A stretch of 22,499 nucleotides of DNA from a virus, in the IMG/VR virus record IMGVR_UViG_3300025299_000112, positions 1 through 22,499 of that record; one strand, given 5' to 3'. The translations under genes were made by a program, and so were the position numbers. The notes under the pieces are model-generated. The model was not told where the DNA came from and made no database searches. It saw only the letters and a program-made list of their open reading frames with translations. This document shows, piece after piece, positions 1 through 20,989 of this stretch; the first letter of the stretch is position 1, and each line of letters begins with the position of its first letter.

Positions 1-402
1 ATGAACCATCGCACCGATCTGCTTGAGCAGGACATGGCCGCCGTCAAATCGACACTGGACGACATGCGCGCCAATTACGTCCGTAGTGAAGTGCGTATCG
101 CCGCGCTGGAGGAGGATATGGCGACGGTGAAAACGGCGGTGGAAGTGATAAGTTCTAACTATGCCAGGCGCGAAGATTTGCGTGCGCTGGAACAGCGTTT
201 CGATTCCGAATTGCCTCACCTGGCCACGAAAGCTGAGCTGCAGGAACTGCGCAGCGAGACGCGTGCGTGGATGGTGGGCACAGCAATCTCCCTGTGCATT
301 GCGCTGGCGACGCTGCAGTTTTCTTTCTATCAGCTGCAGAAAAGCTCCATCAACGAGCAGGTTCAGCTTGCCGTCAAGGCGGCTGTCAAAGCCCAGCTCT
401 AA
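1..402 (+). CDS. Small coiled-coil protein with one C-terminal membrane segment
   Basis: This 133-residue protein has an N-terminal region (about 1-87) rich in Leu, Glu, Asp, Arg and Ala with heptad-like spacing, suggesting a coiled coil. A hydrophobic segment at about 90-112 is likely a transmembrane helix, followed by a short, mildly basic tail. The overall look resembles small DUF1640-like coiled-coil membrane proteins found in bacteria and prophages, but I do not recognise a defined family and assign no function. The ATG is the first base of the window, so upstream signals cannot be judged and a longer form is possible. It converges on the leftward 42-aa ORF, and the two stop codons overlap. 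Whether it belongs to the phage-derived locus or to the host flank is unclear. Confidence 0.6.
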   Translation: MNHRTDLLEQDMAAVKSTLDDMRANYVRSEVRIAALEEDMATVKTAVEVISSNYARREDLRALEQRFDSELPHLATKAELQELRSETRAWMVGTAISLCIALATLQFSFYQLQKSSINEQVQLAVKAAVKAQL

Positions 403-527
403 GCCATGTTGGTGGCCGGGTACGCCGGCCTCGGCACATTAAACCAGTGCGGGTTCGCCATCAGCTGTGAAGCGGCATCGCCACGCCGTGTCGCTTCGTC
501 AAGCGCTGCTAATTCGGCAGGGGACAT
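399..527 (-). CDS. 42-aa ORF under repressor-type operators, function unknown
   Basis: The ORF starts with MSPAELAALDEATRRGD and ends PAYPATNMA. It has a good ribosome binding site (GGAGA, about seven bases before the ATG). The predicted N-terminal half is helical, and the C-terminal half holds aromatic residues and prolines (HWFNVPRP). No transmembrane segment or signal peptide is visible. Its stop overlaps the end of the convergent gene at 1-402. Upstream are a candidate promoter and two perfect 16-bp copies of the operator also found at the repressor's divergent promoters, so it is probably induced together with the phage-type locus. I do not recognise the protein. A role in immunity, in regulation or as a moron gene are all open. 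It is small enough to be overlooked by gene callers. Confidence 0.55.
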   Translation of the reverse strand: MSPAELAALDEATRRGDAASQLMANPHWFNVPRPAYPATNMA

Positions 528-560
528 GGTTTTCTCCGTCAGGTAACTGTCAACGAAGAA

Positions 561-590
561 ATAATAGCAAAGCTAGTTTTTTCAGCGCAA
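561..590 (-). promoter_or_regulatory. Candidate sigma70 promoter for the 42-aa ORF
   Basis: Reading leftward, a -35-like TTGCGC (585-590) is separated by 18 bp from a strong -10 TATTAT (561-566). Transcription would start about 25 bases before the ATG at 527. One operator copy overlaps the -10 and the other lies just upstream of the -35, the expected layout for a repressed promoter. Confidence 0.5.
565..575. promoter_or_regulatory. Operator copy 1 (TAGCAAAGCTA)
   Basis: Near-palindromic 11-mer TAGCAAAGCTA within a 16-bp block AATAGCAAAGCTAGTT (563-578) that is repeated exactly 26 bp away. It overlaps the -10 of the promoter for the 42-aa ORF. The same motif recurs at the divergent regulatory promoters at 1669-1728. 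Confidence 0.7.
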
Positions 591-601
591 TAGCAAAGCT
601 A
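591..601. promoter_or_regulatory. Operator copy 2 (TAGCAAAGCTA)
   Basis: Second exact copy of the 16-bp block (589-604), immediately upstream of the -35 of the leftward promoter. The 26-bp centre-to-centre spacing to copy 1 (about two and a half helical turns) matches the spacing of the three operators at the main switch (24-25 bp). Confidence 0.7.
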
Positions 602-617
602 GTTATTTTGCGAAAAT

Positions 618-872
618 TCAGAACGGCTCCGGACTCTTGTCCAGCTCCGGCCGGTAGTTGCGCCAACGGATCTTGTCCGTATTGATGTGGGGCAGCAAAC
701 GGTCGGCATTGAAGGCCGCATAGCTATGCGAGAAGCCGCCGATCCGTGACGAAAGGAGGAGGATGGGCAGGGTAGGGAACACCTGTCCGGCCCGGCGCAG
801 CATGGCTTGCGCGGGGGCGGGATAGGTGGACTCGGCATCGACCAGCACCGCCGCCAGGCGGATGCCTTTCAC
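618..872 (-). CDS. Conserved-looking 84-aa phage-associated protein, function unknown
   Basis: This lies 32 bases downstream of the repressor gene in the same direction, so the two are probably co-transcribed. The likely start is the GTG giving VKGIRLAAVLVD. The open frame extends further upstream into the end of the repressor gene, but without a better start or a clear ribosome binding site. The sequence has alternating hydrophobic stretches (RLAAVLVD, LPILLLSSRIGG) that suggest a small alpha/beta fold. It then has a region SYAAFNADRLLPHIN and a charged, proline-containing tail. From memory, similar small proteins accompany LexA/S24-type repressors in betaproteobacterial prophages, but I cannot name a family or function. 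The start codon is the least certain part. Confidence 0.5.
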   Translation of the reverse strand: MKGIRLAAVLVDAESTYPAPAQAMLRRAGQVFPTLPILLLSSRIGGFSHSYAAFNADRLLPHINTDKIRWRNYRPELDKSPEPF

Positions 873-904
873 GGTGATGACGGCCGCGCGCAGCGCTGCC
901 CCGT

Positions 905-1654
905 TCAGAGCCGGTCCTTGAAATTGCGCGGATCGAAGCGTACCAGGCGGCCCACCACCTGGCAGTCGGCGCCCTTGCAGGGCTGCGGCCGGAACTCCGG
1001 GTTCTCCGATACCAGATACCATTCCCGGCGCTCGTATTTCAGGCGTTTGATCACGCCTTCGCCATGGTAATTAAGGGCAAACACGCCGCCGCTCACCCGC
1101 GTCTTGTTGCTCAGGTCGATAACGGCGATATCGCCTTCATACATCAGGGGCGCCATGCTGTTGCCCTTGATTTTTACGGCCAGCAGGGTCTGCGGCACCA
1201 GGCCGTTTTCTTCCATCCACTGGCGCGGGATATGATGGCGGTTGCCGTCGTCGAACAGGTTTTCTGTTTCGAAGCCGGTGATGCCGGCGCGCAGCGGCAT
1301 CGGCCCCAGCTTGATGGCCACGGCTTCCGGCGCCTCGTCCTCGTCATCCGTTACCGGCCGCAGGCCGGGCAGGATGGCGGACACCGCCTGCGAGGCGTCG
1401 CCGATCTGGGCCGCAATAGTGGGACTGAAATCTTCCACCGACACATTCAGTCCGCGCGCAAAGGCGGTCGCGGCCTTGATATTGAGCGGCCGTCGGCCAG
1501 CAATGTACTGCCACACCATGCCTTGCGAGCCGATGTCGAACTGCGCGCCGAACTCGGCCTGCGACATCTTCGGTTCGCGGGCGTCGAACAAGCGCTTCAG
1601 CCGGACGGCGTCTTCGGCTTGCCATGCTTCCAGGGGTTTCGGGTCTGTTTTCAT
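905..1654 (-). CDS. Phage-type repressor: HTH plus S24 (LexA/CI-like) peptidase
   Basis: This is a 249-residue transcriptional repressor that should hold the locus silent in the uninduced cell. An XRE/CI-type helix-turn-helix covers about residues 30-78 (MSQAEFGAQFDIG then VWQYIAGRRPLN), followed by an acidic linker (DDEDEAPE, 103-110). The C-terminal S24 peptidase domain has a catalytic Ser166 in GNSMAPLMYEGD and Lys203 in GVIKRL. An Ala123-Gly124 pair (LRAGITG) is a plausible self-cleavage site, as in LexA and CI. The frame could start further upstream at 1723, but that would add residues encoded inside the operators. The ATG at 1654 follows a -10 element almost directly and has no Shine-Dalgarno, suggesting a leaderless mRNA like lambda cI from PRM. 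The gene is divergent from the winged-helix regulator, with three operators between them. Confidence 0.9.
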   Translation of the reverse strand: MKTDPKPLEAWQAEDAVRLKRLFDAREPKMSQAEFGAQFDIGSQGMVWQYIAGRRPLNIKAATAFARGLNVSVEDFSPTIAAQIGDASQAVSAILPGLRPVTDDEDEAPEAVAIKLGPMPLRAGITGFETENLFDDGNRHHIPRQWMEENGLVPQTLLAVKIKGNSMAPLMYEGDIAVIDLSNKTRVSGGVFALNYHGEGVIKRLKYERREWYLVSENPEFRPQPCKGADCQVVGRLVRFDPRNFKDRL

Positions 1655-1664
1655 TTGAGTGAAG

Positions 1665-1692
1665 TGTATAGCAATGCTATTAACTACAACAA
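1665..1692 (-). promoter_or_regulatory. Repressor promoter (PRM-like, leaderless transcript predicted)
   Basis: On the minus strand TTGTTG (1687-1692), a 16-bp spacer and TATACA (1665-1670) form a modest promoter. The expected start lies near 1656-1659, only a few bases before the ATG at 1654. Operator copy 3 (1669-1679) overlaps the -10, so the repressor could regulate its own synthesis. Confidence 0.5.
1669..1679. promoter_or_regulatory. Operator copy 3 (TAGCAATGCTA)
   Basis: TAGCAATGCTA is a palindrome around its central base. It overlaps the -10 of the repressor promoter. Centre at 1674, 25 bp from the next copy. Confidence 0.75.
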
Positions 1693-1693
1693 C

Positions 1694-1732: not shown

Positions 1733-1780
1733 TGTGCCATGGAAGGCGCCTCATCAACAAGCTTTATCGGAAAGGGCATC

Positions 1781-2197
1781 ATGGCATCAGGCAAAACACA
1801 CCAAATCGGACAGACTTTCAGGCATCACGGCGGTCGGCGCAAGCTGGCGGCGCCGGACACCATCCTCAGCTATCTCCTCGCCTGCGGGCAGGTCACTTCG
1901 GCCGAACTCATCGACCTGCTGGACATTTCACCGGGCACCCTCAGCCGCCAGTTGAACGCGATGTGCGCCGCAGGAAAAATTCATCGGGCCGTCAAATATT
2001 CGGGGCGCCGTGGCGGCCACGCGGTCTACGCGCCCGGTCCGGAGCCCACGGATGATAACGACGAGGAAGAAGAAGCAAGCATGGAGCAGTCGGTCGTGCA
2101 TAACTACGACTGGCCGCGTGGCGAAGCACGGCGCGATCCGCTGGTGGCAGCGCTGTTCGGGGAAACAGGCATGCGTAATAACTGTGTTGAGCAATAA
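1781..2197 (+). CDS. Winged-helix DNA-binding regulator (early gene)
   Basis: This 138-residue protein is the first gene of the rightward transcript. Residues about 26-75 form a winged helix-turn-helix: DTILSYLLACGQVTSAELIDLL, then the recognition helix SPGTLSRQLNAMCAAG, then a basic wing (KYSGRRGGHAVY). An acidic stretch (DDNDEEEE) and a C-terminal motif RRDPLVAALFG follow. The ATG at 1781 was chosen because it has a ribosome binding site (GGAAAGGG). An upstream ATG at 1739 lies almost on the transcription start and is less likely. It could act as a Cro-like switch or as an activator of the late genes, the job PrtN does in pyocin loci, but I see no specific PrtN similarity. Its placement opposite the repressor supports a regulatory role. 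Confidence 0.75.
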   Translation: MASGKTHQIGQTFRHHGGRRKLAAPDTILSYLLACGQVTSAELIDLLDISPGTLSRQLNAMCAAGKIHRAVKYSGRRGGHAVYAPGPEPTDDNDEEEEASMEQSVVHNYDWPRGEARRDPLVAALFGETGMRNNCVEQ

Positions 2198-2208: not shown

Positions 2209-2742
2209 ATGGGTTTCGCTGACAGATTTGTTCGTTCACTCAATTCGTATGACCTGCGCGACGACGCGCACCACCATGCCCTCGACGCTATCGCCGCCGC
2301 GGCGCTCGCAGGCGACCTCGGCTCGCTGCTGGCGCGTGTGAAATACGCGGATGGCACGGTCAACCGCCTGTTCGAAGGCAACCACCAGAATCTCGCGCAG
2401 CTGCTGCGTCTGTGGACGAATGCCGTGATCAAGAAAGGCCGGCAGCGGCGCTGGGTAAAGGAGAACACGGCGTGGGATGCGCAGGCGGCGCAGTCGCTGT
2501 ACCGCCGCGTGGCCGAACGCTCGCTGGCGTACTGGCTGGACGGGAAGTGCCCCACCTGCCACGGCACCGGCCAGGACGGGCACCGCGCCTGCGCTGCCTG
2601 CAAAGGAAACGGCAAGGCGGAAGTGCAGGGCGGCGGTTTCGAGCGCGAGCGTGTGCTCGATATGGTCAGCGAACTGGAAGTGATCGTGCAGTCGCACCAC
2701 GCGCGCGCCAATGCACTGTTGCGCAAGCGCCCCGCAAATTAA
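2209..2742 (+). CDS. Zinc-finger protein, probable Q-type late antiterminator
   Basis: This 177-residue protein follows the winged-helix gene by 11 bases and has a strong ribosome binding site (AAGGAGAGG). The N-terminal part is helical and basic (KKGRQRRWVK at 75-84). A zinc-binding DnaJ-like motif follows, with cysteines 114, 117, 128 and 131 (CPTCHGTGQ and ACAACKGNGK). The C-terminal part is a helix rich in charged residues. Phage antiterminators of the Q82 family carry CxxCxGxG zinc motifs of this kind. The position fits as well: last gene before the late operon, directly followed by a candidate promoter and three terminators. The assignment to antitermination is inference from motif and context. 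A generic zinc-finger DNA-binding protein is the alternative. Confidence 0.65.
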   Translation: MGFADRFVRSLNSYDLRDDAHHHALDAIAAAALAGDLGSLLARVKYADGTVNRLFEGNHQNLAQLLRLWTNAVIKKGRQRRWVKENTAWDAQAAQSLYRRVAERSLAYWLDGKCPTCHGTGQDGHRACAACKGNGKAEVQGGGFERERVLDMVSELEVIVQSHHARANALLRKRPAN

Positions 2743-2947: not shown

Positions 2948-2948
2948 C

Positions 2949-2989: not shown

Positions 2990-4219
2990 ATGGGCGATAT
3001 CGCACAAGGCGTATCCAAAGAGTTCCGCATTAAACGCCAGACCGCGCGCGGCACCGTCGCAAGCGCTTCCGGCGCACAGATCCTGCGCCGCAAAACCGCG
3101 ACGATGGAACTCAAACGCGATGCATACAACACTGCCGACGAAATGGCGTCGCACCAGCAAATGTCCAGCGAGCGCCAGGGCGTGCAGATGGTGGACGGCA
3201 AGCTGAGCGGCTTCCTGTCTCCCGGCACCTACGCCGACCTGTTCTCGCAGATCCTGCGCAAGGACTTCGCAGCCGGCATCACCAGCGGCGAGCTGACCAC
3301 CGTGGCGGCAGCTTCCACCGCCGGTGCCTTCGGCACCTTCACCCGTTCCGCCGGCTCCTGGCTGGCCGATGGCTTCAAGGTGGGCGATGTGGTGCGCGGC
3401 AGCGGCTGGACCAGCACCGGCGATGCGAACAATGCGCGCAACCAGCTGGTGGTGAACCTGAACGCCACCGTGATGACGGTGAAGAACCTGGACAACTCGC
3501 CGATTGGCGCCAAGGCGGCCGGCGATTCCGTCACCATCGCCGTGGTGGGCAAGAAGTCGCATATTCCGGCCAGCGGCCACACCAATGTGTACAGCACGGT
3601 GGAAGAGTGGCGTCCGGACGTGGGCATTTCCCGCCTCAGCAAGGACGTGAAAGTGAGCCAGGCCGCGATCAAGCTGCCGGGCAGCGGCAACGGCGAGGTG
3701 GACTTCACCTTCATCGGCCTGGACCAGACCAACGGTGCGGAAGCCTACTTCACCGCGCCGGCGCCGGAATCCGCCACCGATGTGCTGTCCACCGCCACCG
3801 GCATCCTGGTGCTGAACGGCAGCGAGAACGTGGTGGTGACCAATATCGACTTCACCATCGATGGCCAGGAATCGGCGCTGGATGGCGTGGTCGGCACCAA
3901 CCTGCGCCCGGACATCCAGCGCAAGAAAGTGCTGGTCAAGGGTTCCTTCTCGGCCTATCTGGACAGCGACGCGATCCACCAGCTGTTCCTGGACGAGACC
4001 GAAACCAACCTGATCTCGATCCTCACCACCGGCACCGCGGCCAATGCGGACTTCATCGGCTTCTCCATGCCGCGTATCAAGATCCAGGGCTCGGCCCCGG
4101 ACGACGGCGAGAAGGCGGCCGTGCACCAGTACCAGTTTACCGCCCTGTACGACTTCAGCGGCGGCGCCGGTACGGATTCCGACCAGACCACGCTGTCCAT
4201 GCAGGACAGCCAGGCCTGA
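2990..4219 (+). CDS. Major tail tube protein
   Basis: This 409-residue protein is the first gene of the tail module. It would polymerise into the non-contractile tube (lambda gpV role). The ATG at 2990 was chosen because it has a ribosome binding site (GAAAGG). The frame runs further upstream, but only through the terminator array. The N-terminus (MGDIAQGVSKEFRIKRQT) and a beta-rich body with many short alternating strands are typical of siphophage tube proteins. Position confirms it: tube, frameshifting chaperone and tape measure in this order is the standard siphophage arrangement. It is longer than lambda V (246 residues), so it may carry extra surface domains. No head-tail connector or tail terminator gene precedes it, as in F-pyocin clusters. 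The family call rests on context and general look. Confidence 0.8.
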   Translation: MGDIAQGVSKEFRIKRQTARGTVASASGAQILRRKTATMELKRDAYNTADEMASHQQMSSERQGVQMVDGKLSGFLSPGTYADLFSQILRKDFAAGITSGELTTVAAASTAGAFGTFTRSAGSWLADGFKVGDVVRGSGWTSTGDANNARNQLVVNLNATVMTVKNLDNSPIGAKAAGDSVTIAVVGKKSHIPASGHTNVYSTVEEWRPDVGISRLSKDVKVSQAAIKLPGSGNGEVDFTFIGLDQTNGAEAYFTAPAPESATDVLSTATGILVLNGSENVVVTNIDFTIDGQESALDGVVGTNLRPDIQRKKVLVKGSFSAYLDSDAIHQLFLDETETNLISILTTGTAANADFIGFSMPRIKIQGSAPDDGEKAAVHQYQFTALYDFSGGAGTDSDQTTLSMQDSQA

Positions 4220-4224
4220 CCCGT

Positions 4225-4278
4225 CAGGGCCGATTGGCCCTGTGCTTTCGGCCCGGACGACCTCCGGGCCTTTTTTTT
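4225..4278 (+). terminator. Tandem hairpins and intrinsic terminator after the tail tube gene
   Basis: The first hairpin has a perfect 7-bp stem (CAGGGCC, 4225-4231, with GGCCCTG, 4236-4242) without a T run. The second has a perfect 8-bp stem (GGCCCGGA, 4250-4257, with TCCGGGCC, 4263-4270), a 5-base loop and eight T (4271-4278). Placed between tube and chaperone, it would keep the tube transcript more abundant than downstream ones. Confidence 0.85.
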
Positions 4279-4314
4279 CTTCTCACGACTCCCACAACAG
4301 AAAGATCAAAACCA

Positions 4315-4764
4315 ATGAACACCGCACAAGCAATCGCCGCCGCCGGCTTCGACATCTCCCTGCTGAACGCCGAAGCCCCGATCGAGAAAACCCATACCGT
4401 GACCGTGCTGTTCGACAAGGACGGCAACCACCGCGCGGGTTTCGAGATCGTCAGCAAGAATTCCGTGCAATACCAGGACGCCATCCGCGCCACTTCGGTC
4501 AGTGCCATCAAGCGCGGCCAGACCAAAAGCCTGCAGATCGATGCCAAAACCGATGAAGGCGCCGGCACCCTGTACGACTTGGGCGAAGACCGCAATATGC
4601 AGATCGCCATTGCCGTGGTGGTCGGCCTGCCCGGCTTCGTCGACCAGGGCCAAGCGGTGCCCGTCACGCCGGCCTTCCTGAAAGCCTGCTTCACCAAATT
4701 CCCGACCTGGCAGGACAAGATCATCGCCGCGCTGGAGACGGACGCCAATTTTTTGACGGTCTGA
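4315..4764 (+). CDS. Tail assembly chaperone (lambda gpG role)
   Basis: This 149-residue protein acts in tail assembly, where such chaperones coat the tape measure and recruit tube subunits. It lies directly between the tube and tape measure genes. It starts MNTAQAIAAAGFDISLLNAE and ends TDANFLTV. Near its 3' end is a slippery T TTT TTG heptamer (4749-4755), and the -1 frame stays open to 5117, so part of the ribosomes should make a G-T fusion of about 267 residues. This is the hallmark of the lambda G/GT pair and strongly supports the assignment. The ribosome binding site is weak (AGAAAG). The gene follows the terminator at 4250-4278 by 36 bases. Confidence 0.85.
   Translation: MNTAQAIAAAGFDISLLNAEAPIEKTHTVTVLFDKDGNHRAGFEIVSKNSVQYQDAIRATSVSAIKRGQTKSLQIDAKTDEGAGTLYDLGEDRNMQIAIAVVVGLPGFVDQGQAVPVTPAFLKACFTKFPTWQDKIIAALETDANFLTV
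4749..4755 (+). promoter_or_regulatory. Programmed -1 ribosomal frameshift site
   Basis: The zero-frame reading is AAT TTT TTG ACG GTC TGA. Slippage of T TTT TTG by one base places both tRNAs on TTT TTT, and the next codon becomes GAC (4755). The -1 frame then has no stop until 5115-5117. The zero-frame stop is at 4762-4764. Confidence 0.85.
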
Positions 4765-5117
4765 AGCAGCAGCTGCTGGCGTTTGCCGAGGCGGAGTTCC
4801 GCCTCGGCGCGCAGCAGCAGGACGGCCACACGCTGCGCTGGCACCTGGAGGTTGTCTACCAGCAGAGCGGCGTGATGCCGGAGGAACTGAACGTGCCGCC
4901 GCTGCCGGCCGAACTTGCGCACCTGTGGGGCTATTTCCAGCAGATGAACGCAAAGCGGACCTGCGGCGCCATGTTCCCCAATCCCCTGTCGGACGAACAG
5001 ATCCTGGGCTGGCAGCAGCGGCACCGGATCTGGCTCACACCATTCGAGGGCGAATGCATCGATGCGCTGGATCTTCTGTTCCTGATCAACGTCAGCAAAT
5101 CCCAAAAAACCTCATAG
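4755..5117 (+). CDS. Tail chaperone frameshift extension (lambda gpT role)
   Basis: These 120 codons have no initiation signal of their own at the junction and are expressed as the C-terminal part of the G-T fusion. After the slip the protein reads DGLKQQLLAFAEAEFRLG. It is acidic and helical, with several Trp residues (RWHLEV, LWGYFQ, GWQQRH). In lambda the T domain binds tube subunits. An internal ATG at 4872 opens the same frame, but it is not needed for this model. The stop codon at 5115-5117 overlaps the 5' arm of the next terminator. Confidence 0.8.
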   Translation, partial: DGLKQQLLAFAEAEFRLGAQQQDGHTLRWHLEVVYQQSGVMPEELNVPPLPAELAHLWGYFQQMNAKRTCGAMFPNPLSDEQILGWQQRHRIWLTPFEGECIDALDLLFLINVSKSQKTS

Positions 5118-5139
5118 CCGCCATCAGGTGGCTTTTTTT
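5116..5139 (+). terminator. Intrinsic terminator between chaperone and tape measure
   Basis: A 7-bp stem with one G-T pair (AGCCGCC, 5116-5122, with GGTGGCT, 5127-5133), a 4-base loop and seven T (5133-5139). The stem begins inside the TAG stop of the frameshift product. Confidence 0.75.
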
Positions 5140-5149
5140 CTCAACGACC

Positions 5150-8100
5150 ATGAACGAAGAAATCGCAAACCTCGGACTTCGCATCGTCTCGGCCGATGCG
5201 CGCACCGCCACCGGCGAGCTGGATTCCTTCAGCAAGGCCGGTGCACGTGCGCAGAAATCAACTGTAGAACTCGATCTCGTAGCGAGAAAGCTGAAGGGTG
5301 TGCTGGATGTACTGGGAATCGATACCAGTGTCGCATCGCTGCTTCAGATGAGCGAGGAATACGGGCGCCTGACGACCCAGCTGCGCCTGGCTACGGATTC
5401 CCAGCAGGCCTACGCACTGGCCCTGGCCGACGTCAAGCGCATTGCGGCGGAAGGCCAGCAGGACCTCGCCGCCACCGGTGCGCTGTACGCGCAAATGGCT
5501 CATGCCACGAAAGCGCTGGGTGTATCCCAGGAGCAGGTGGCCGCGATCACCGAAACTGTGAGCCTCGCCACCAAGCTGTCAGGCGCCAGCGCAAGCAATG
5601 CCGCCACGGCGCAGCAGGAACTGGTCAAGGCTTTCGCCGCCGGAACGCTGGGGATGGAGAGTTTTAACGCCATCAATACGACCGCGCCAGGCCTGATGAA
5701 GGCGCTGGCCGACGGCGTTGGTGTCTCGGTGAACGCCCTGCAGAAAATGGCGGCGGAAACCCGGATCACTTCGGACGTGATGGCTGGCGCCTTGCCAATT
5801 ACCTTGTCGCAACTGCAGCAACAGGCCGAGCAGAGCCACAGCGCAGCGGGGGCTACTACTGTCCTCAAAAACAGCGTGATGGAGTTCGTCGGCAGCCATG
5901 CCCAGGCCAATGGCGTGGTGTCACTGCTGGCAGGCGGCATCGGCCTGCTGTCGGATAACGTTTCGCTGCTGCTGAGCGTACTCGGTGCGGCGAAGGTTCT
6001 CGATATCACCAAATGGCTGGAATCCGCCACTGCAGGTGTGGGCGCCTTGACGGCCGCAACGGGTACCGGGGCGGCAGCGACCGGCCTGGCAAGCCGGGCG
6101 CTGGGCCTGCTGGGTGGGCCGATCGGGGTAGCGGTTACGCTGATCAGCACGGCAGCGGCTGCCTGGGCCTGGTACAGCAGTTCCAGTGATGACGCTGCGG
6201 GCAATGTGGCGAGCTCTGCTGAAACAAGCACTGCCGCCATCATAGAGAGCATGGAAAAGCAGGTTGCCGCGATGGAGCGCCGCAACGCGCTGGCCGCTGA
6301 AGGCACGCCGGCAGCCTCGAACCCGCTGGAAAACCAGCGCAATGTCGTCAAAGCGCAAATCGATCAGGTAGGTAAAGGGGAGGGCGACTATGCCAATCTG
6401 AACCTGCTGGCCCGGCAGGACCTGCTGATGAAGCTCGGTGGCCAGTATAACGACCTGACGCTGCTGATCGAACGCTTCAACAAGGCGTCGGTTGACGACG
6501 GGGGCAATAGCAAGACAGCGCAGGCGGTCGACGGCTTGCGTAACCGCTTGAATGGCGTCAACACGCAGTATCTGCAGGACCTGAAGACGCTCCAGGCGAT
6601 CCGCGAAGACAATCCTCAGGAGTACGTGAATCTCGTCTCCAAGCTGGCGAAGGAAACCTGGAACAACTCCGAAGCGGGCCGTGCTGCCGCAGACGCGGCA
6701 CGCGAGTCGAAGCAAGCCTATGACAGCCTGATGAAATCGATTCGCGGTACGACGGTAGAGAACGAGATCGAACTGAAAATCGGCAAGGATGCCAGCGCAG
6801 GTGAGCGCGCCCGTGCCCGCATTCTTCACGATCTGGACACGCATACCCTGAAGCTGGGCGTGACGCGCGAGGCCGCCGTGCGCGCGGCGCTCAAGGAACA
6901 GGAGCAGAGCGAAAAAACGCTTGCAGCGCAGCGCGTGGAAGCCGCGGGGATCAAGAAACTGGCGGACGAACGCAAGAGCGCGCTGGAAGCTGCCAATGCG
7001 GAAGCGAATGCCAACGAAGCGGCATGGGCGAACTTTGGCAAGAGCAAGGTCGAGATCGCGCAAGGCGAGCTGAAGCTGTTGCAGAAGCAAGTGGAACAGG
7101 CCGCTACGGACAGGGACCAGGCCGCACACCTCCAATCGCTGGCCGATGCAAAACAGCGCAGTATTGGCGCGATGGAGAAGCTGGAAGCGGGAGGAACGCT
7201 GAAGCAATGGACAGACGAGAACAAGCGCTATGCGATAGAGAGCATCCGGGATGATAAAGCGCGTGCGGCGGCCGTTCTGCAAAACGAGGCTGAGCTTCGT
7301 CGCAAGCAGGTCGAGCTGGTAGCCCAAGGCACGAAAGAACGTACCGACCTGGAGGAACAATACAACACCTGGTACAGCAACCAGCAGCAGAAGACGATCA
7401 CTCAATACGCTGAGCTGTTCCACACGGGATTTACGGAAATTCTAACCAAGGGCAAGGCAGGCTGGAAGTCCTTTACCGCATCGCTGGTCAACACATTCAA
7501 GACTACCGTTGCCGACCAGATCTACAAGATGATGGCCGAACCTTTTGTTGTTCGTCTGGTGGGGAGTTTTCTGGGCGTCGCCGGACCGGCTTCCGCTGCA
7601 GAGTCACCCGGTCAAGGGATGGCCGGCTCGGTAGCCAGCTCTGCGGTCAGCTCTGCGCTCGGACTGGGAGCGGCCGCGAGTGCTTTCACGGGCACCCTTG
7701 CTACCGGCTTCATGAACACCATTGTAGGGACGGGCGTGTCAGCAGGGCTCCAGGCAGCCGGTGCCATGGCGGCAAATGGCGCCTTTGCTGCAGGCGCCGG
7801 CATGGCAATCGGCGCCATTGCCCCTTACGCCCTGGCGCTCTATGCCGCCGTGAAGATATTCGACAAAGGCGAAGAGAAAAATACCCGCCTGACTTTTACC
7901 AGCAATAACACGCCTGGCAACATCAGCATCAACGAGCGTGGCAACGAAGGGAAGATTCACCAATCGTATATTGACGGCTATGGTACCGGCGCTTTTGGCA
8001 CATTCGGCCTGTCTTCCACCTACTGGATGGATGGCCGGCAGGAGGCCGTGCAAAGCTTTATCAAAACCGTGACCAAGGTTGACGACGTGCTGTCAGGATT

Positions 8101-13472: not shown

Positions 13473-13475
13473 CCC

Positions 13476-14315
13476 ATGTTCAATAATCTCCGGATCATCT
13501 ACGACAACGCGGCGGACCGTGCGCTGCTGAGCGCCTCTTCGGAGGCCAGCGCGTCGCTCGGCGCCGCCAACCTCAAACTCGATACCAAGGCGCGCGTATG
13601 GCGCTCCACCGGTACCAGCGCACAGTTGGTGGCGACCTGGCCGCAGCCCGAAACCATTGCCGGCGTCGCCCTGGCGTTCTGCAATCTCACCGGCACCGAT
13701 ACGCTCCGCGTGCGCGGCTACGCCGAAGCTTCGGACAGCATGCCGCTGTTTGACAGCGGACCGGTACTGGCCTGCCCCGGCCCGGCCATGGGCTTGTGGA
13801 ACTGGGGACCGAAAGGACTGGGCTCCAACGCCTTTGCCTATGGCGGCGGTGCTTATGGCCGGGTCTGGATTCCAGTACCGGGCGCGGTCAGGAAGCTGCT
13901 GATCGATATCGCTGCACCGGGCAACCCGCTAGGCTATATCGAGGCGAGCCGCCTGGTGTGCGGCGCCTACTGGTCGCCGGAATACAACGCCAGTTTTGGC
14001 GCCGCCGTCACGCCAGTCGATTCATCCGCGCACTTCCGTACCGCGGCCGGCGACTTGCTGACCGATGCCGGGCCGCGGCACCGCGTCCAGGTCTTCGACC
14101 TGGGCTCGATGAATACCACCGACCGCGCCATGGTCTGGCATATCGTGCGCGGCAACGGCATGCCGAAACCGCTGTTCTTCAGCCTGTATCCCGGCCATGA
14201 GGACACGAGCCTGGAGCAGGAGCACCAGATGTATTGCAAGCTCAGCCAGCTCAAGGCCATCGTCACCCCGACCACCCAGCGTTACAGCACGTCCATCGAA
14301 CTTGAGGAAATCTAA
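13476..14315 (+). CDS. Tail tip accessory protein, beta-sandwich-like, function uncertain
   Basis: This 279-residue protein starts three bases after the previous stop and ends immediately before the next ATG (TAAATG). It is strand-rich. Its order of motifs (MFNNLRIIYDNAADRAL, then SASLGAANLKLDTKARVW, then TIAGVALAFCNLTGTDTLRV) resembles phage proteins with a discoidin-like or galactose-binding-like N-terminal domain. A long glycine-rich loop follows (GPKGLGSNAFAYGGGAYG). Residues about 190-279 look like a second beta domain (HRVQVFDLGSMNTTDRAM, then TPTTQRYSTSIELEEI). No membrane or signal segment is present. By context it belongs to the tip and may link the fibres to the hub or bind carbohydrate. 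I give it no firm function. Confidence 0.6.
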   Translation: MFNNLRIIYDNAADRALLSASSEASASLGAANLKLDTKARVWRSTGTSAQLVATWPQPETIAGVALAFCNLTGTDTLRVRGYAEASDSMPLFDSGPVLACPGPAMGLWNWGPKGLGSNAFAYGGGAYGRVWIPVPGAVRKLLIDIAAPGNPLGYIEASRLVCGAYWSPEYNASFGAAVTPVDSSAHFRTAAGDLLTDAGPRHRVQVFDLGSMNTTDRAMVWHIVRGNGMPKPLFFSLYPGHEDTSLEQEHQMYCKLSQLKAIVTPTTQRYSTSIELEEI

Positions 14316-16952
14316 ATGGGAAATCGCTTCTTTTATAATATGCCGCCCACGGTGGCGATCGAACGCCTGAACCAATTCGACGAGGAGGTGCAGCTGGCCG
14401 CTGGCGCCATTGTTGAGGCCAGCGCGGCGGCAGCCGCTGCAACCGTGAAGGCAGCTGAAGCCGCTTCCAGTGCAGCAGCTGCAGCAGATTCCGCTACCAC
14501 CGCCGGCAGCGGTGCCGCCACCGCCACCGCCAAGGCAGGCGAGGCGGCGTCCAGCGCGTCCAGCGCCGGTGCGAAGGCGGACGAAGCGTCTGCCAGCGCG
14601 ACCGCAGCCGCTGCGAGCGCTGCGCTGGCCGCGGCTAAGGCGGCCGACGCTGCTTCGGATGCCGCTACAGCCAACTTGAAAGCAGGGGAGGTTATTGCCA
14701 GCGCATCAGCTGCCGCTTCGAGCGCATCCATCGCCGACGGGAAAGCCGATGAGGCTTCCGCCAGCGCCGCTGCGGCTACGGCCAGCGCATCGGCCGCGGC
14801 AGCCAGCGCGGGCAATGCGCACAGCGACGCCATCGGCATTCTGAGCAATATCGGGGGGGCTGAACAGATTCTGGCGGATGCCCAGCTGACTGCGGCCGAT
14901 ATCAATGCCAATATCGCCGGCGCCGCAGCCAGCGCCGCAGCAGCGCAGGTAAGCGCGGCGGCAGCGGAGGGCAGCGCAGCCCTTGCAAGTGCCGATGCTG
15001 CAGCCGCGCAGGCCGACGCGACTGCAGCAGCAGGCTCTGCAACCTTCGCCAGCTCGGAGGCGGACCGTGCGCAGGCTGCAGCAGACATGGCAACGGCCGG
15101 GCAAATCCAGTCGGATTGGGGCCAGGCCGACAGCATGCAGCGGGATTTCATCAAGAACAAGCCTGATGTCGTACAGCGTGGCGAGCTGAACGCGCCCAAT
15201 GGCGTGGCAGGCCTGGATGCGAGCTTCCGGGCAAAACTGAAGAATGCCGCGGGTACGATCACCAGCTTGCTGGGGAACCTGGCGACCGCCACGCGTACCT
15301 GGTCCCTGCCCGATGCAAGCGGCACCCTTGCGCTACTCACGGATATCACCAAAGGCACTATCGGCCTGTCCAATGTGGACAACACTTCGGACGTCAGCAA
15401 GCCGGTATCGGCCGCCGCGCAAGCAGCCCTGAATCTGAAAGCCAACCTTGCTTCGCCCTTGTTTACCGGGACGGTAAGCGCCGACGGTGACTTCAAGGGC
15501 CCTGTTCTGTCGCTCAATTTCGACCGGCTGGAAAATCATGCTCACGATCTCGATACGGCTAATGTGGCAATCAGCTTCAACGGCTATGCCGGCGGTACGA
15601 CGCGCTACCGGAATTTCATCGTATGCGATGGCAAACAGGCGCCCATCATGTTCTTGACCGGGGCCAGCAAGCTGGCCAGTTTCACCGGCAGTGTCGCGGT
15701 CAGCCAGAATCTGACGGTCACCGGCAACCTGACCGTCAATGGCACGACCACTACGGTCAATTCAACTACCTTGACGGTGGATGACCCGATTGTCACGCTT
15801 GGTGGCGATACCGCGCCTGTTGCGGACGATGCAAAAGATCGGGGCATTGAAATGCGCTATTACGCCGGAGGCGCCGCGCGTCTGGCTTTCATGGGTTACG
15901 ACAGCAGCAGCGGCCGTTTTTCTTTCCTGACGTCAGCGACGAATACTGGCGAGGTCTTCACCGGAAGCAAGGGGATACTGGACGCAAACCTGGCCGGTGA
16001 CGTGTCCGGCAACCTGACGGGCAATGTGACCGGCAATGTGTCCGGAACGGCCGCTAATGTCACCGGCACCGTGGCGCTTGCCAACGGCGGCACGGGCGCC
16101 ACCACCGCGGCGGCGGCGGCCAGCAACCTTGGGCTGGGTACGGCCAGCGTGCCGGTGTTCAGCGGGGCCGTGCTGTCCTCCGCCTATCCGAACCTGCGCT
16201 TCCAGGAGACCGATGCCGCCAGCGGTTCGCGCTGCACGCGTATCGATTTCACCGGCGGCGTGATGAAGGTGCAGCGCCTGGGCGACGACGGTGTTACCTG
16301 GATCAGCGATATGCTGTCGCTGAGTGTCGCAGGCGTGCTCGGCATTGGCACAGTCAACGCGACCACATTAAATGCGGCCGAGCAAAGGCTCACCAGCGCT
16401 TCCCCCGTGCTGTATTTCGACGAAACCGGCCAGGCGGGTGGCACGGGCCTGTTCCGCCTGGTGGCGGACAATGGCGTACTGCGCCTCGACCGGAATACGG
16501 CCGCAGGGCGCGACTTCAGCAGTTACGCAACGATGTGGCAGACCGGTGCGAACAACAACTTCCTGGACCAGCCGCTGATCCGGGCCCGCCAGTACGACTG
16601 CAGCCTGGTGGTCACTGCCAAAGGCAATTCCGGTACCACGCCACAGACCTTCAATTACGAAGAGGGCTCGGTTCAGACCATCACCATTACCGGGGCGCAT
16701 AGCTGGTCTTTTTCTAACTGGCCAGGGTATGGCGATTTCGGTGCAATGCTTGTCGAGGCTACTAATGGCGGGGCGTACGCCGTCAGTTTCGCTGCCAGCA
16801 TCAGCTGGCAGTTGCCCGCTGGCGGTTACACGAACAGCTTTGCCAGCTATATGACCGCTGTCGGCCGCAGTGGCCTCCAGGCCAGCGGCGTTGACCAGCT
16901 GCTGTTCTGGAGCCGCGATGGCGGTACTACTGTCTATGGGAAAATTCTATGA
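14316..16952 (+). CDS. Large tail fibre with alanine-rich coiled-coil shaft
   Basis: This 878-residue fibre has a ribosome binding site GAGGAAA. Residues about 30-258 are an Ala/Ser-rich coiled shaft with heptad-like repeats and a twice-repeated KADEASASA motif, as in lambda Stf-type fibres. Hallmark tail fibre motifs follow in order: QSDWGQADSMQRDFIKNKP (about 265-284), NVDNTSDVSKPVSAAAQAAL and SPLFTGTV (about 352-388), NLTVNGTTTTVNSTTLTVDD (about 471-490) and ALANGGTGATTAAAAASNLG (about 588-608). The C-terminal part (about 775-878) is strand-rich with several Trp and likely forms the distal tip. The gene overlaps the next start by four bases. The fibre would help decide which cells are recognised. 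Confidence 0.85.
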   Translation: MGNRFFYNMPPTVAIERLNQFDEEVQLAAGAIVEASAAAAAATVKAAEAASSAAAAADSATTAGSGAATATAKAGEAASSASSAGAKADEASASATAAAASAALAAAKAADAASDAATANLKAGEVIASASAAASSASIADGKADEASASAAAATASASAAAASAGNAHSDAIGILSNIGGAEQILADAQLTAADINANIAGAAASAAAAQVSAAAAEGSAALASADAAAAQADATAAAGSATFASSEADRAQAAADMATAGQIQSDWGQADSMQRDFIKNKPDVVQRGELNAPNGVAGLDASFRAKLKNAAGTITSLLGNLATATRTWSLPDASGTLALLTDITKGTIGLSNVDNTSDVSKPVSAAAQAALNLKANLASPLFTGTVSADGDFKGPVLSLNFDRLENHAHDLDTANVAISFNGYAGGTTRYRNFIVCDGKQAPIMFLTGASKLASFTGSVAVSQNLTVTGNLTVNGTTTTVNSTTLTVDDPIVTLGGDTAPVADDAKDRGIEMRYYAGGAARLAFMGYDSSSGRFSFLTSATNTGEVFTGSKGILDANLAGDVSGNLTGNVTGNVSGTAANVTGTVALANGGTGATTAAAAASNLGLGTASVPVFSGAVLSSAYPNLRFQETDAASGSRCTRIDFTGGVMKVQRLGDDGVTWISDMLSLSVAGVLGIGTVNATTLNAAEQRLTSASPVLYFDETGQAGGTGLFRLVADNGVLRLDRNTAAGRDFSSYATMWQTGANNNFLDQPLIRARQYDCSLVVTAKGNSGTTPQTFNYEEGSVQTITITGAHSWSFSNWPGYGDFGAMLVEATNGGAYAVSFAASISWQLPAGGYTNSFASYMTAVGRSGLQASGVDQLLFWSRDGGTTVYGKIL

Positions 16953-18832
16953 GCCAGGAATTGATGATGATGGCCGGTACCGGCTCCAAGCCGAAAGCTC
17001 AGCTTAAGGAAATTTACTATGCAGACCAGTTCGTCGGGACTGGCGCGGCGCTGACGATTAACGACGGTATCAACCGCACGGATGGTGTTCCCGTGCTGGA
17101 TATCTTCAAATGCCACACTTCGGCTTCGACGCCATTCACGTGGTGCGACACCATTCGTGGTCCCGGGCGGCACATGGTAACAAACAGCAATGCTGCCGAA
17201 GCCGCCAATCCGCAGGGCATTGCGGCCTACACCAGCACGGGATTCACCCTCGGGTCGCACGGCAATATGAATTTGTCGGGCGGGCATATTATCCGGTTCA
17301 CGTTCAGGGAGGCACCGAAATTTTTCATGATGCGTGAAGTTGCCCATGTCCAGGGGAATGCAGAGACAGTTGATCTGTCCATGCTGGGAACGGTTGGTAT
17401 GGTGGTAGTCAAACGCAGGGATGGCACGTCCAACTGGTCGACACAGCATCAGTCCAACCCGTTCGAGAACATGAAGTTCTCCCTTAATTCGAGCGCTGTC
17501 GGGGCCATCGACAGCCAGATGTACACCATCTCGGGCACCACGCTGGCCATGTCCACGCATGCGAATGCGGCCACCGGCAGTTATATGATTTATGCATGGG
17601 CGAATGATGCGTCGCCCGACGGCTTCATACGCTGCGGTGCCTGGACCTCTCTGGGCATCGACCAGGTCCTCAGTACAGGCGGAGAGCCCAGCTTCCTGTT
17701 CTTCACTCATCCAAACACAGCAAGCCAGCGCTACATAATTGATGATTTGCTCGGTTTTGGCAATACTCAGTGCGGGTATCTGCAAGTGAATAATGCAGTT
17801 CAGCGGAGCACGCTCTCTCACGTTCTTAAGGATGGTGGTCAAAATGGCGTAACTATCGGTGCCACCACCCCCGCTGGTGTTTATCTGTGTGTGAAGGACC
17901 CCCGCGGTACGCCGAAGGATGCCACCCAGGTATTTCAGGCGGCCGCGACCCCAGCGGCGGCTACTGCCAGAATCGATGCGAATTTCCGGCCTGACATGGC
18001 ACTCCTCGGATCCCGAAGTGGAGGGAGTTCATGGTGGCTTCATGCTGCAATGCATAACTGGAACTCATACAAGAATCCCGCTATGGACGCCCCGGAGTCC
18101 TCTATGCCATCGCTCAACAAGCTTGCAGCCAGGGGGTTAGTTGCGCCTGTAAGTAGTGGAAATAATCTGATGGCTTGGATGTTGCGCCGTGCGTCGGGCG
18201 TGTATGAACAGGTGGCGTACATCGGGAATGGCAATACGCGTACCGTCGCCCATAGGCTAGGCGTGGCACCCGAAATGATTTGGGTAACGCAAGCCGGATT
18301 TTATGCGGAGGAGGGGGGCAACGAGTGGGGCATCTGGATGCGCGGTCCGGGCCTCGTAAATAATGAATCAGTCACCAGCGCGTGGGACGAAGGGAAAACT
18401 GCTGTTTTCGATATCTGGGGCGGTGGTTCCATCGGCAACAACCTGATATTCAACCTGGGCGGCGGGGATACGCGTTCCAACTACAGCGGTGTTCGATATA
18501 CGGCACACCTGTTCGCCACGCTTCCAGGTATCAGCAAGGTCACTTCCTACGTTGGCAACGGGGCGTCCCGGGTAGTCGACTGTGGTTTCTCAAACGGTGC
18601 GCGCGGCGTCATGATCAAGAAGGTTAGCGGCACCGGCGCCTGGCTTTTTTACGACGCATCCAGGGGGATCGTCGCTGGAAATGACCCGCGGGTCGGATTC
18701 AATTATGCCGAATCCTCGCTTGAGGATGGAATCGATCCCGATCCCTCGGGCTTCGTCGTCAATAAGACAGCGAATACGACATATAGCCCCAATGAATCCG
18801 GCCAGCTGTATATGGTCCTGGCCTTCGCTTGA
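16949..18832 (+). CDS. Receptor-binding tail protein with DUF7483-like repeats
   Basis: This 627-residue protein starts with MSQELMMMAGTGSK at an ATG overlapping the fibre stop. It contains several copies of a fibre-tip domain of DUF7483 type. One copy lies around residues 126-157 (ETVDLSMLGTVGMVVVKRRD) and continues to about 240. Another has YIGNGNTRTVAHRLGVAPEM (about 424-443), and the last has YVGNGASRVVDCGFSNGARG (about 534-553) and ends VLAFA. Such domains follow the pattern GNG..R.V.H.LG..P..I.VK and are common at the tips of phage fibres. By eye its base composition is less GC-rich than the tail core (30 of 60 bases at 17761-17820 against 42 of 60 at 10681-10740), consistent with exchange of the specificity module. 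It is probably the main adhesin. Confidence 0.75.
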   Translation: MSQELMMMAGTGSKPKAQLKEIYYADQFVGTGAALTINDGINRTDGVPVLDIFKCHTSASTPFTWCDTIRGPGRHMVTNSNAAEAANPQGIAAYTSTGFTLGSHGNMNLSGGHIIRFTFREAPKFFMMREVAHVQGNAETVDLSMLGTVGMVVVKRRDGTSNWSTQHQSNPFENMKFSLNSSAVGAIDSQMYTISGTTLAMSTHANAATGSYMIYAWANDASPDGFIRCGAWTSLGIDQVLSTGGEPSFLFFTHPNTASQRYIIDDLLGFGNTQCGYLQVNNAVQRSTLSHVLKDGGQNGVTIGATTPAGVYLCVKDPRGTPKDATQVFQAAATPAAATARIDANFRPDMALLGSRSGGSSWWLHAAMHNWNSYKNPAMDAPESSMPSLNKLAARGLVAPVSSGNNLMAWMLRRASGVYEQVAYIGNGNTRTVAHRLGVAPEMIWVTQAGFYAEEGGNEWGIWMRGPGLVNNESVTSAWDEGKTAVFDIWGGGSIGNNLIFNLGGGDTRSNYSGVRYTAHLFATLPGISKVTSYVGNGASRVVDCGFSNGARGVMIKKVSGTGAWLFYDASRGIVAGNDPRVGFNYAESSLEDGIDPDPSGFVVNKTANTTYSPNESGQLYMVLAFA

Positions 18833-18851
18833 ACAAATAAAGGAGTATCCA

Positions 18852-19397
18852 ATGAATGAGTATCGCAAACGTGCTGATGGCACGCTGGTCGGCGAGCAGC
18901 AATTGCGGCTTGAGTTTAATGGTATGGCGCCGGCAGTCTTTGATCGTGAGTTTTGTGATGTATTGCAGGTTGATCCAGTACTGCCGGCCCCTGCTCCCGA
19001 AGTTGGACCACAACATATCGCCTACCGCGATGGAATTGTGCAAGATGTCCTTGGAAACTGGATTTACGCTTGGTCTGTCCGTCAGAAATCTCCGCAGGAG
19101 ATTGCGGAACAGGAGCACGCCGCGACAGTAAGCGTTGAACGGCCCTACATCGTGTTGCTGGAGGAGATGCTTGACCGTAAAGCGCAGGAACGCCGCTACG
19201 ACAACCGCCTGACATGCGCATTGCGCGCAGGGTATAGCGGTCCGTACCAGGCTGAGGGGCAGGCCTTTGCCATGTGGATGGATGCATGCAACACCATCAC
19301 GTATGAGGTGCTACGGCAGCTAAAAGCGGGCACGCTCGCGCCACCCACCGTGGACGAAATGTTCAGCCAGTTGCCGGAACTCGCCTGGCCCGACTGA
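18852..19397 (+). CDS. Tail fibre assembly chaperone
   Basis: This 181-residue protein lies 19 bases after the receptor-binding gene with a clear ribosome binding site (AAAGGAG). The frame extends upstream into the preceding gene, but the ATG at 18852 is the well-supported start. The N-terminal half is strand-like (MNEYRKRADGTLVGEQQLR) and includes QHIAYRDGIVQDVLGNWIYA. A helical, charged region follows (LDRKAQERRYDNRLTCALRA, then EGQAFAMWMDACNTITYEV), matching the general plan of Tfa/DUF4376-type fibre chaperones. Such proteins help fibres trimerise and are usually swapped together with the fibre tip. Its lower GC content, like that of its upstream neighbour, fits that pairing. Confidence 0.75.
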   Translation: MNEYRKRADGTLVGEQQLRLEFNGMAPAVFDREFCDVLQVDPVLPAPAPEVGPQHIAYRDGIVQDVLGNWIYAWSVRQKSPQEIAEQEHAATVSVERPYIVLLEEMLDRKAQERRYDNRLTCALRAGYSGPYQAEGQAFAMWMDACNTITYEVLRQLKAGTLAPPTVDEMFSQLPELAWPD

Positions 19398-19437
19398 AAT
19401 GAAGTTCCCCTCACATATCACCTCAGGAAAAGAGACA

Positions 19438-19869
19438 ATGGCAATCGAAACTACGGCCGGAGCTGGCGGCGTCATCATCAAGATCTTCGGCATGCCGCTA
19501 CTGGCCGGAGCTGCCGCGAGTGCGCTTACCTTCCTGTTCATGTGGCCGCGCACGCGCCGCGAAGCCTTTGTCCGGTTCACCTGCTCCATCCTCACCTCGG
19601 CACTGCTTGGGCCGCTGCTGGTGGTGGCGCTGCACAGCTGGTGGCCGACGCTGTTCGAGTCGGCACGGGCCGTCTCGGTCCTGAATGGGGCCGATCCGGC
19701 GGTGGGCATGCTGGCCGTTGCCGGACCAGTCATGGTGCTGGCGGGCTTGCCCGCATGGTGGGTGCTGGGCGCCATCGTGCTGTGGCTGGAACGCCGCCGC
19801 GGCAAGGACATCGCCGAGCTGGCGCATGATGCGGCGGAAGCCGTGAGGGATGTGAAGGGGGGACTATGA
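19438..19869 (+). CDS. Holin-like membrane protein
   Basis: This 143-residue protein has three hydrophobic segments at about 11-35, 47-67 and 89-117, followed by a charged cytoplasmic tail (ERRRGKDIAELAHDAAEAV). It opens the lysis cassette directly after the fibre genes. The ATG at 19438 has a ribosome binding site (AGGAAAAG). An in-frame ATG at 19399 lacks one. It would form membrane lesions that release or activate the endolysin. Three membrane segments and a charged tail are a usual holin plan, and the endolysin start overlaps its stop (ATGA). The holin call rests on topology and position rather than on a specific family. Confidence 0.75.
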   Translation: MAIETTAGAGGVIIKIFGMPLLAGAAASALTFLFMWPRTRREAFVRFTCSILTSALLGPLLVVALHSWWPTLFESARAVSVLNGADPAVGMLAVAGPVMVLAGLPAWWVLGAIVLWLERRRGKDIAELAHDAAEAVRDVKGGL

Positions 19870-20492
19870 CGCCGGAGCAGTTCATGCGCATCATGCCCAA
19901 GGCCCGCCAGCGTGCGGGCCTTTTTGTTCCCGCGCTGAATGCTGCGATGGCGGAGTTCGGCATAAGCACACCGCCGCGCCAGGCCGCCTTCCTGGCGACG
20001 GTCGCGCACGAGTCCGGCCAGCTCTCCGTGTTGGAAGAGAACCTGAATTACAGCAGCGCTGCGCTGGCAAAGGTCTGGCCGTCGCGCTTTCCGCCGCCGC
20101 TGGCGGCGGCCTATGCACACCAGCCGGAACGGATCGCCAACCGGGCTTACGCCAGCCGCGAGGGCAATGGCCCTGAAGCGTCGGGCGATGGATGGCGCTA
20201 CCGTGGCGCCGGCGCCATCCAGCTGACCTTCGCCAATAACCACGCCGCCTGCGGCCGCCATTTCGGTCTCGCCAGTGGCGAGACCGGCGTCTGGCTGCGG
20301 CGTCCTGAAGGTGCCTGCCGCAGCGCCGCCTGGTTCTGGTGGCACAACGGCATCAACCGATGGGCCGATGCGCTCGACTTCGACGGTGTGTGCGACATGG
20401 TCAACCGGGGCAGGAAGACTGCAACGGTGGGCGATGCGATCGGCTGGCAGGAGCGGCTGGCTTTCTATAACACTGCCATGGAGGTCTTATGA
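19866..20492 (+). CDS. Endolysin, GH19 chitinase/lysozyme-like
   Basis: This 208-residue muralytic enzyme would cut peptidoglycan to release the particles. A GH19-type fold is indicated by FLATVAHESGQLSVLEENLN, with Glu49 as the likely catalytic acid, and by the downstream motif GDGWRYRGAGAIQLTFANNH (about 107-126), typical of GH19 phage lysozymes. A helix rich in Trp and Phe follows (AAWFWWHNGINRWAD). No signal peptide is present, so export depends on the holin. The ATG overlaps the holin stop, preceded by AAGGGGGG. An unusual feature is a perfect 9-bp terminator-like hairpin within its first 20 codons. Confidence 0.9.
   Translation: MTPEQFMRIMPKARQRAGLFVPALNAAMAEFGISTPPRQAAFLATVAHESGQLSVLEENLNYSSAALAKVWPSRFPPPLAAAYAHQPERIANRAYASREGNGPEASGDGWRYRGAGAIQLTFANNHAACGRHFGLASGETGVWLRRPEGACRSAAWFWWHNGINRWADALDFDGVCDMVNRGRKTATVGDAIGWQERLAFYNTAMEVL
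19899..19925 (+). terminator. Terminator-like hairpin inside the endolysin gene
   Basis: A perfect 9-bp stem (AAGGCCCGC, 19899-19907, with GCGGGCCTT, 19914-19922), a 6-base loop (CAGCGT) and a T run to 19925. It lies in codons 12-20 of the endolysin. On an untranslated or naked RNA it should terminate. Translation or antitermination would suppress it. Confidence 0.6.
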
Positions 20493-20989
20493 CAAACCTG
20501 CTCCTTCCCGCGCCGGCGAAGTATGCGCTGGCTGCCGGTGCGGCGCTGGCGCTATACCTGCTCGGGCGCATCGATGGCGAGCGGGCTGCCGGCGAAACGC
20601 ATCTCCGCTATGTGGAGCAGCAGGCTGCCCGCAGCACGGCTATCGCCCATGCCCAGGCCAGGGTTGTTGTCCGCACCGAAACCAAATACCGCGACCGTAT
20701 CCAGACGGTCTATGTGAAAGGAGATGAAATTGAACGCCAGGTTCCGGTCTACATTACGCGCGCTGACGATGAGCGCTTCGGCGTCAATGCTGGCTTCGTG
20801 CGCAGCTACAACGCCGCCTGGTCAGGTGAGCCTGCCGGACCTGCCGCCGAGTCTGATGCAGACCCCGCCGCCATTCCAGTGTCTGCGCTGGCCGCCACGG
20901 ACGCCCACAATGCAAGCGCTTGCCGGGCCTGGCGCGAACTGGCGCTCGGACTGCGGGAGCACTATCAGCAACTGAAGGGCATTGAATGA
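20489..20989 (+). CDS. Rz-type inner membrane spanin subunit
   Basis: This 166-residue protein overlaps the endolysin stop by four bases and has a strong ribosome binding site (GGAGGT). An N-terminal membrane anchor covers about residues 11-26 (KYALAAGAALALYLLG). It is followed by a periplasmic charged coiled-coil region (RIDGERAAGETHLRYVEQQA) and a cysteine-containing C-terminal part. A second reading frame inside it encodes an Rz1-like lipoprotein, the classical nested Rz/Rz1 layout. Together they would bridge inner and outer membrane and disrupt the outer membrane in the last lysis step. This also shows the host is Gram-negative. Confidence 0.85.
   Translation: MTNLLLPAPAKYALAAGAALALYLLGRIDGERAAGETHLRYVEQQAARSTAIAHAQARVVVRTETKYRDRIQTVYVKGDEIERQVPVYITRADDERFGVNAGFVRSYNAAWSGEPAGPAAESDADPAAIPVSALAATDAHNASACRAWRELALGLREHYQQLKGIE
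20724..20975 (+). CDS. Rz1-type outer membrane spanin lipoprotein nested in Rz
   Basis: This 83-residue protein is encoded wholly inside the Rz gene in the +1 frame. It has a basic N-terminus (MKLNARFRSTLR), a short hydrophobic segment, and a lipobox LASC with Cys26. A proline-rich stretch follows (TTPPGQVSLPDLPPSLMQ), as in Rz1 proteins. Start choice is unusual. The ATG at 20724 is directly preceded by AAAGGAG with no spacing, while an in-frame TTG at 20730 has the ideal six-base gap, so TTG may be the real start. The C-terminal third is less typical. Automated annotation often misses such nested genes. Confidence 0.75.
   Translation: MKLNARFRSTLRALTMSASASMLASCAATTPPGQVSLPDLPPSLMQTPPPFQCLRWPPRTPTMQALAGPGANWRSDCGSTISN

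Follow-up and report, generated by a model that had tools for sequence, protein, structure and literature searches.

What has a 22.5-kb viral locus been kept for if it encodes a phage tail and the means of lysis, and no head? The DNA that we analysed (hereafter the window) is an entire virus record of 22,499 bases. An earlier note, made from the sequence alone, proposed that it holds a domesticated flexible-tail bacteriocin. We set this proposal against three alternatives: a decaying prophage, one half of a split phage and a supplier of tails to other elements.

Gene content of the window

The window begins exactly with an ATG codon and ends exactly with a TGA codon, and its sister records likewise end at boundaries of their own genes. 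Such ends indicate that the record is a provirus segment, excised from a longer contig at gene boundaries. An S24 repressor gene on the minus strand is followed by two regulators and then by a plus-strand series from tail tube to spanin (2990–20989). Left of the repressor lie small genes (1–402 and 618–872), one for a coiled-coil protein of membrane type and one an 84-aa frame on the minus strand for which we found no Pfam family. We corrected four starts: repressor (1654), tube (2990, not 2864), tape measure (5150, not 4925) and fibre chaperone (18852). The window genes are tightly packed and all open, with no internal stops; the repressor, long tail genes of non-contractile type and full lysis set described in the earlier note are all present.

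The tail genes, all on the plus strand, start with a tube protein (2990–4219, PF18906, 1.1e-17) that is 36–39% identical to tubes of Curvibacter, Limnohabitans and Caulobacter phages. It is followed by a gene that resembles tail assembly chaperones by position and family (4315–4764), with up to 75% identity to homologues in intact prophages and 67% to head-less ones, and by the tail assembly chaperone TAC_18 (4875–5117, PF23812, 7.2e-11). The tape measure protein has 1558 aa (5150–9826, PF20155, 1.5e-39; phrog_339, 8e-50) and carries a DUF4214 domain in its C-terminal part (residues 1409–1455).

The 491-aa tail hub protein (9823–11298, phrog_8917, no Pfam match) has a T5 pb3-like fold. Its AF2 model (pLDDT 92) superimposes on the T5 hub (7zqp_b) over 452 of 491 residues at 3.1 Å (Z 19.7), and its best match is thus the hub of a non-contractile siphophage. 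Hub folds of this kind also occur in contractile machines, so the assignment to the non-contractile class comes mainly from absent sheath genes: no sheath family or baseplate wedge gene was matched in the window.

Downstream lie a tail tip or fibre-associated protein (11298–13472, phrog_22201 tail fibre, 1.1e-11), a conserved tail-tip gene ahead of the fibre gene (13476–14315, phrog_8610), a large fibre of 878 aa (14316–16952) and a second fibre with a DUF7483 domain (16949–18832, PF24299, 2e-37; phrog_24898 tail fibre). Both large fibres named in the earlier note are therefore present, and the accompanying chaperone is a weaker call: the gene at 18852–19397 is chaperone-like by position and by tblastn matches of 31–33% in L046 and L055. 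The lysis genes, also on the plus strand, encode a holin-like membrane protein (19438–19869, phrog_1024; 58–66% identity in intact and head-less relatives), a chitinase-like endolysin (19866–20492, phrog_181, 3.5e-71) and an Rz-like spanin (20489–20989, phrog_4952).

Profile searches bear out the absences that the earlier note had listed. With the threshold relaxed to E<=1, the window still gave no match to a large terminase subunit, in a search that found one in 13 of 14 control genomes. No Pfam or PHROG match identified any window gene as a head, portal, connector, integrase or replication gene; the two fibre proteins match PHROGs labelled structural or head by domain only. No capsid or terminase gene adjoins the locus within the 22.5 kb. 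We also found no head-tail joining gene, no tail terminator gene and no lambda M-L-K-I-J set in the window, and no immunity gene was readable from its sequence.

Relatives with and without head genes

Genome scans with the window tape measure or hub protein alone returned nothing in bacterial genomes, and relatives were reached only by aligned hub, winged-helix and Zn-finger queries. The Zn-finger gene family also occurs in temperate phages of 50–72 kb. There it closes the early region; genes for both terminase subunits, small and large, come next, with portal and head genes and, further on, the same tail. Intact temperate siphophages of this kind (L034/L064, L028/L075, L054/L199, L058/L170, L060 and L042) share the tail and lysis modules of the window and, in most cases, its Zn-finger gene and control element, but in them genes for terminase, portal, capsid and connectors separate the control element from the tube. 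One of them, the 36-kb prophage L042, has genes for terminase, portal and capsid, and its tip, fibre and lysis genes follow the order seen in the window.

In a census of 79 Zn-finger loci, the next gene was terL or portal in 61 and the tube in 12; the other 6, which consisted of stretch ends or weak matches only, were left unassigned. Several of the 12 tube-next loci are known head-less records under new locus identifiers. By record rather than by locus identifier, the head-less loci number 13: the window, an eleven-record family (L040, L044, L047, L133, L135–L137 and L139–L142, hereafter the L040 family) and L204. The L040 family, drawn from eight isolate genomes and three metagenome records, has the gene order of the window, with nothing between Zn-finger gene and tube. 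L204, from an isolate, represents a third head-less lineage and carries one extra gene, tail-terminator-like, before the tube. Isolates that carry a head-less locus include those of IMG genomes 2893777743 and 2724679786. The window lineage itself is represented by one further record, L002, a 100% identical fragment. The gene that adjoins the window locus at its right end encodes a Big-domain lipoprotein rather than the purine permease found beside the L040 family, which marks the window as a separate lineage. The lipoprotein gene had no plasmid match and the purine-permease gene had distant matches only.

The window lacks the head segment found in intact relatives between late-control element and tube. 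In intact prophages the control element is followed by the terminase operon, here by the tube gene, indicating that head genes were removed between the element and the tail genes; the interval from Zn-finger gene to tube, which holds the head genes in intact relatives, is 247 bases in the window. Comparison of synteny across related genomes, which the earlier note had recommended, thus finds the head-less order recurring in an eleven-record family, and the proposal of a domesticated bacteriocin gains support from it.

These comparisons also bear on the idea that a functional phage has been split in two, with the window as one half and the head genes at another place in the same genome. The analysis covers no more than 22.5 kb of the genome from which the window comes, and two genomes (2854727110 and 2708742400) hold an L040-family record together with intact prophages that have the same Zn-finger gene. 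However, every intact relative seen has its head and tail genes in a single operon that follows a single control element, and the window lacks the head-tail joining and tail terminator genes. The record was also cut at gene boundaries, which suggests that its neighbours were not called viral. We consider a split phage very unlikely.

Regulatory genes and a late-control element

The repressor (905–1654, minus strand) is of the CI/LexA type with an S24 peptidase domain (PF00717, 8e-18; phrog_4, 1.5e-34) and has motifs of the self-cleavage type, Ala123-Gly124 and GNSM (Ser166). The adjoining region (1655–1738) is a putative divergent promoter and operator with a repeated TAGCAATGCTA and TTGACT-16-TAGTAT, both consensus matches only. 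On the other side lies a winged-helix regulator (1739–2197, plus strand, PF13412, 4.8e-7) whose close relatives were found solely in head-less loci; that of L204 is a distant relative. Weak winged-helix-type matches of 31% occur far upstream in two intact prophages.

The second regulator (2209–2742, plus strand) is a Zn-finger protein with DnaJ-type CxxCxGxG motifs, which we propose to be a Q-like antiterminator. The PHROG annotated as anti-termination protein Q-like (phrog_127) matches 11 of 15 members of the family. Alignment with lambda Q by hhalign covers the Zn finger only and is weak (P 2.5e-4, probability 43), and the AlphaFold model has a pLDDT of 47. In a tree of this protein, read without a root, the window and the L040 group stand apart from 14 intact-phage members (SH-aLRT 98). 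The regulatory part composed of winged-helix and Zn-finger genes thus groups the head-less loci together.

Between the Zn-finger gene and the tube we identified, on the plus strand, a promoter-like site that is a late promoter candidate (2759–2788; a consensus match, with the number of such sites not above chance), a conserved structured late-control element of the form ACTCGTAAT-hairpin-CACCGATAG (2808–2839) and three tandem intrinsic terminators (2891–2964, fold z −5.0). Further plus-strand intrinsic terminators lie within the tail operon (4250–4270) and ahead of the tape measure gene (5116–5133). Dozens of temperate phages share the late-control element, which precedes their late operon. 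In intact prophages it sits between the Zn-finger gene and terminase (at 12369 in L034); it stands directly before the tube in the window and at the equivalent place in the L040 family (at 1953 in L040) and L204. In two intact prophages, additional sequence that holds genes for other functions separates the Zn-finger gene from the control element (L034, 10532–12368; L028, 10532–15517), and this interval is likely a cargo site.

The stems of the element covary. Six distinct versions of the inner stem are all fully paired (24 of 24 positions, against 16.5 in shuffled alignments, s.d. 2.1, with some shuffles also reaching 24). The outer stem pairs at 70 of 88 positions (57.0 when shuffled, s.d. 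2.8), a value reached by 0 of 5000 shuffles. Kinship among the sequences inflates these pairing counts, and we take the covariation as support for a structured element, not as proof. Folding of single sequences was unremarkable, and no Rfam family reached threshold for the element, with weak, chance-like matches only.

Q proteins modify RNA polymerase that is paused near the late promoter (PMC6606751, PMC7171158). The window has the corresponding feature of Q-type late antitermination, with terminators between the candidate late promoter and the first late gene. Together with the structured element and the matches of the Zn-finger protein to the Q-like PHROG and to lambda Q, this arrangement points to antitermination as the likeliest control of the tail operon.

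Retention and decay of head-less loci

Across the testable genes of the L040 family (regulators, tail and lysis), median dN/dS values range from 0.03 to 0.28, including 0.04 for the Zn-finger gene, 0.055 for the tube, 0.15 for the tape measure, 0.04 for the holin and 0.12 for the lysin. We read the right flank in four L040-family records, and all four run into the same purine-permease gene (87–95% identical). A shared chromosomal site and purifying selection indicate that head loss is older than the divergence of the strains and that selection acted on the head-less state. Both observations belong to the sister L040 family only, the window lineage having just its one identical second record.

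The locus has not persisted everywhere. In a fifth genome, the permease site holds a degenerate remnant with repressor, winged-helix and holin genes only (L143, 1–4837), which is followed by the integrase gene of another element. In L044 the tape-measure gene is spread over three reading frames (3471–8052) and is probably broken, or reflects a sequencing error. The remnant and the split gene indicate that the locus has been lost in some strains.

Both would be expected of a defective prophage that recently lost its head and early genes and whose remainder is decaying without function, as would the close kinship of the tail modules to those of intact prophages. Yet the architecture persists in an eleven-record family after head loss, with dN/dS far below 1 and at one chromosomal site; the head-less state recurs in three lineages; and all genes of the window are open. 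We therefore regard a defective prophage as improbable, though the least improbable of the alternatives. With eight isolates of one family, a third lineage, purifying selection and a fixed site where one was seen, the pattern is not that of an isolated recent deletion.

Exchange of tail modules

In the tube tree, the L040 family falls within the intact phages, and the window tube lies elsewhere. These different places led us to reject a single tail ancestor for all head-less loci. Chaperone, tape-measure and hub genes also differ among members, some with 82–84% DNA identity to intact prophages. Since the tail genes do not follow the regulatory grouping, tails have been exchanged with intact prophages behind a conserved chassis. 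A more specific proposal is that a head-free chassis of repressor, winged helix, Q-like gene and late-control element is kept and has repeatedly received new tails from intact prophages that share this control element, that it may have arisen more than once, given three lineages, and that the covarying element is a new class of phage antitermination RNA. We hold this composite proposal tentatively, as somewhat less probable than its opposite.

The match between these tail modules and those of co-existing phages, together with the tail-terminator-like gene kept in L204, could also suggest a tail donor, whose tails complete the capsids of satellites or co-resident prophages and serve gene transfer, not killing. 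But joining to a head should require connectors and a tail terminator, none of which the window or the L040-type loci have, and the lysis genes and diverse fibres fit the needs of a killer. We judge this the least probable of the alternatives, slightly below a split phage.

Fibre genes vary further among the relatives. Four head-less loci (L149, L150, L151 and L147, reverse strand) have two tandem copies of a 280-aa tip gene, followed in at least L147 and L150 by a 599-aa fibre gene. Tandem tip genes with this fibre gene suggest a fibre cassette array; duplicated fibre modules occur in F-type pyocins (PMC13141977).

A putative F-type tailocin and its comparison with known systems

Taken together, the gene content without TerL, the recurrent head-less order, the fixed site and purifying selection, the shared control element, the T5-like hub and the repressor motifs argue for a domesticated F-type (flexible, non-contractile) tailocin, a reading to which we assign a probability of about 0.8. 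From sequence, the window is best read as an SOS-inducible, antitermination-controlled F-type tailocin of a new lineage, and the head-less locus is most likely a bacterial weapon made from a virus.

In the mechanism that we propose, DNA damage would trigger self-cleavage of the S24 repressor, after which both regulators, winged helix and Zn finger (Q-like), would be expressed. Through the structured element, the Q-like protein would enable RNA polymerase to read past the tandem terminators and transcribe the tail operon. On the T5-like hub, tubes would grow to the length dictated by the tape measure of 1558 aa; scaling from lambda, at about 0.15 nm for each tape-measure residue, predicts tails of very roughly 200–250 nm. 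Holin, endolysin and spanin would lyse the cell. The released tails, free of DNA, may open the envelope of relatives that the fibres recognise and thereby kill them.

F-type pyocins of Pseudomonas aeruginosa resemble the window in being head-less and in having non-contractile tail genes and a lysis set. F-pyocins are under the control of PrtN and PrtR, unlike the window, whose control looks like antitermination. F-pyocins also derive from lambda-like tails (PMC12090994), whereas the window has a T5 pb3-like hub and no lambda M-L-K-I-J set.

Rhizoviticin, the F-type tailocin of Allorhizobium vitis, shares with the window, by its description, a head-less region (22.7 kb), a flexible tail and a LexA-type repressor (PMC10811719). 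Both combine a tail with a lysis module (chitinase, membrane protein), and both are chimeras of regulatory and tail parts with intact prophage relatives (PMC10811719). Rhizoviticin differs in keeping replication genes and an integrase remnant and in needing a sigma-factor gene (PMC10811719); the early region of the window has only the repressor, winged helix and Q-like protein with the RNA-like control element.

The Burkholderia R-type tailocins BceTMilo and BglaTNB6 (PMC5411513, PMC11524443) are head-less phage-tail bacteriocins of betaproteobacteria, and the window likewise holds a head-less tail locus. These two are contractile and have a sheath, unlike the window. In the literature that we searched, the only named F-type tailocins are F-pyocin, monocin and rhizoviticin, and the Burkholderia tailocins are R-type (PMC10811719, PMC11524443). 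To Pseudomonas and Listeria, outside which the earlier note considered F-type tailocins rarely described, the alphaproteobacterial rhizoviticin (PMC10811719) is to be added. Our search, beyond whose reach most subscription papers lay, found no F-type tailocin in betaproteobacteria.

The many intact prophage relatives of this locus allow a direct test of how a phage becomes a weapon, including which segment was lost, which control was kept and how the tails are renewed.
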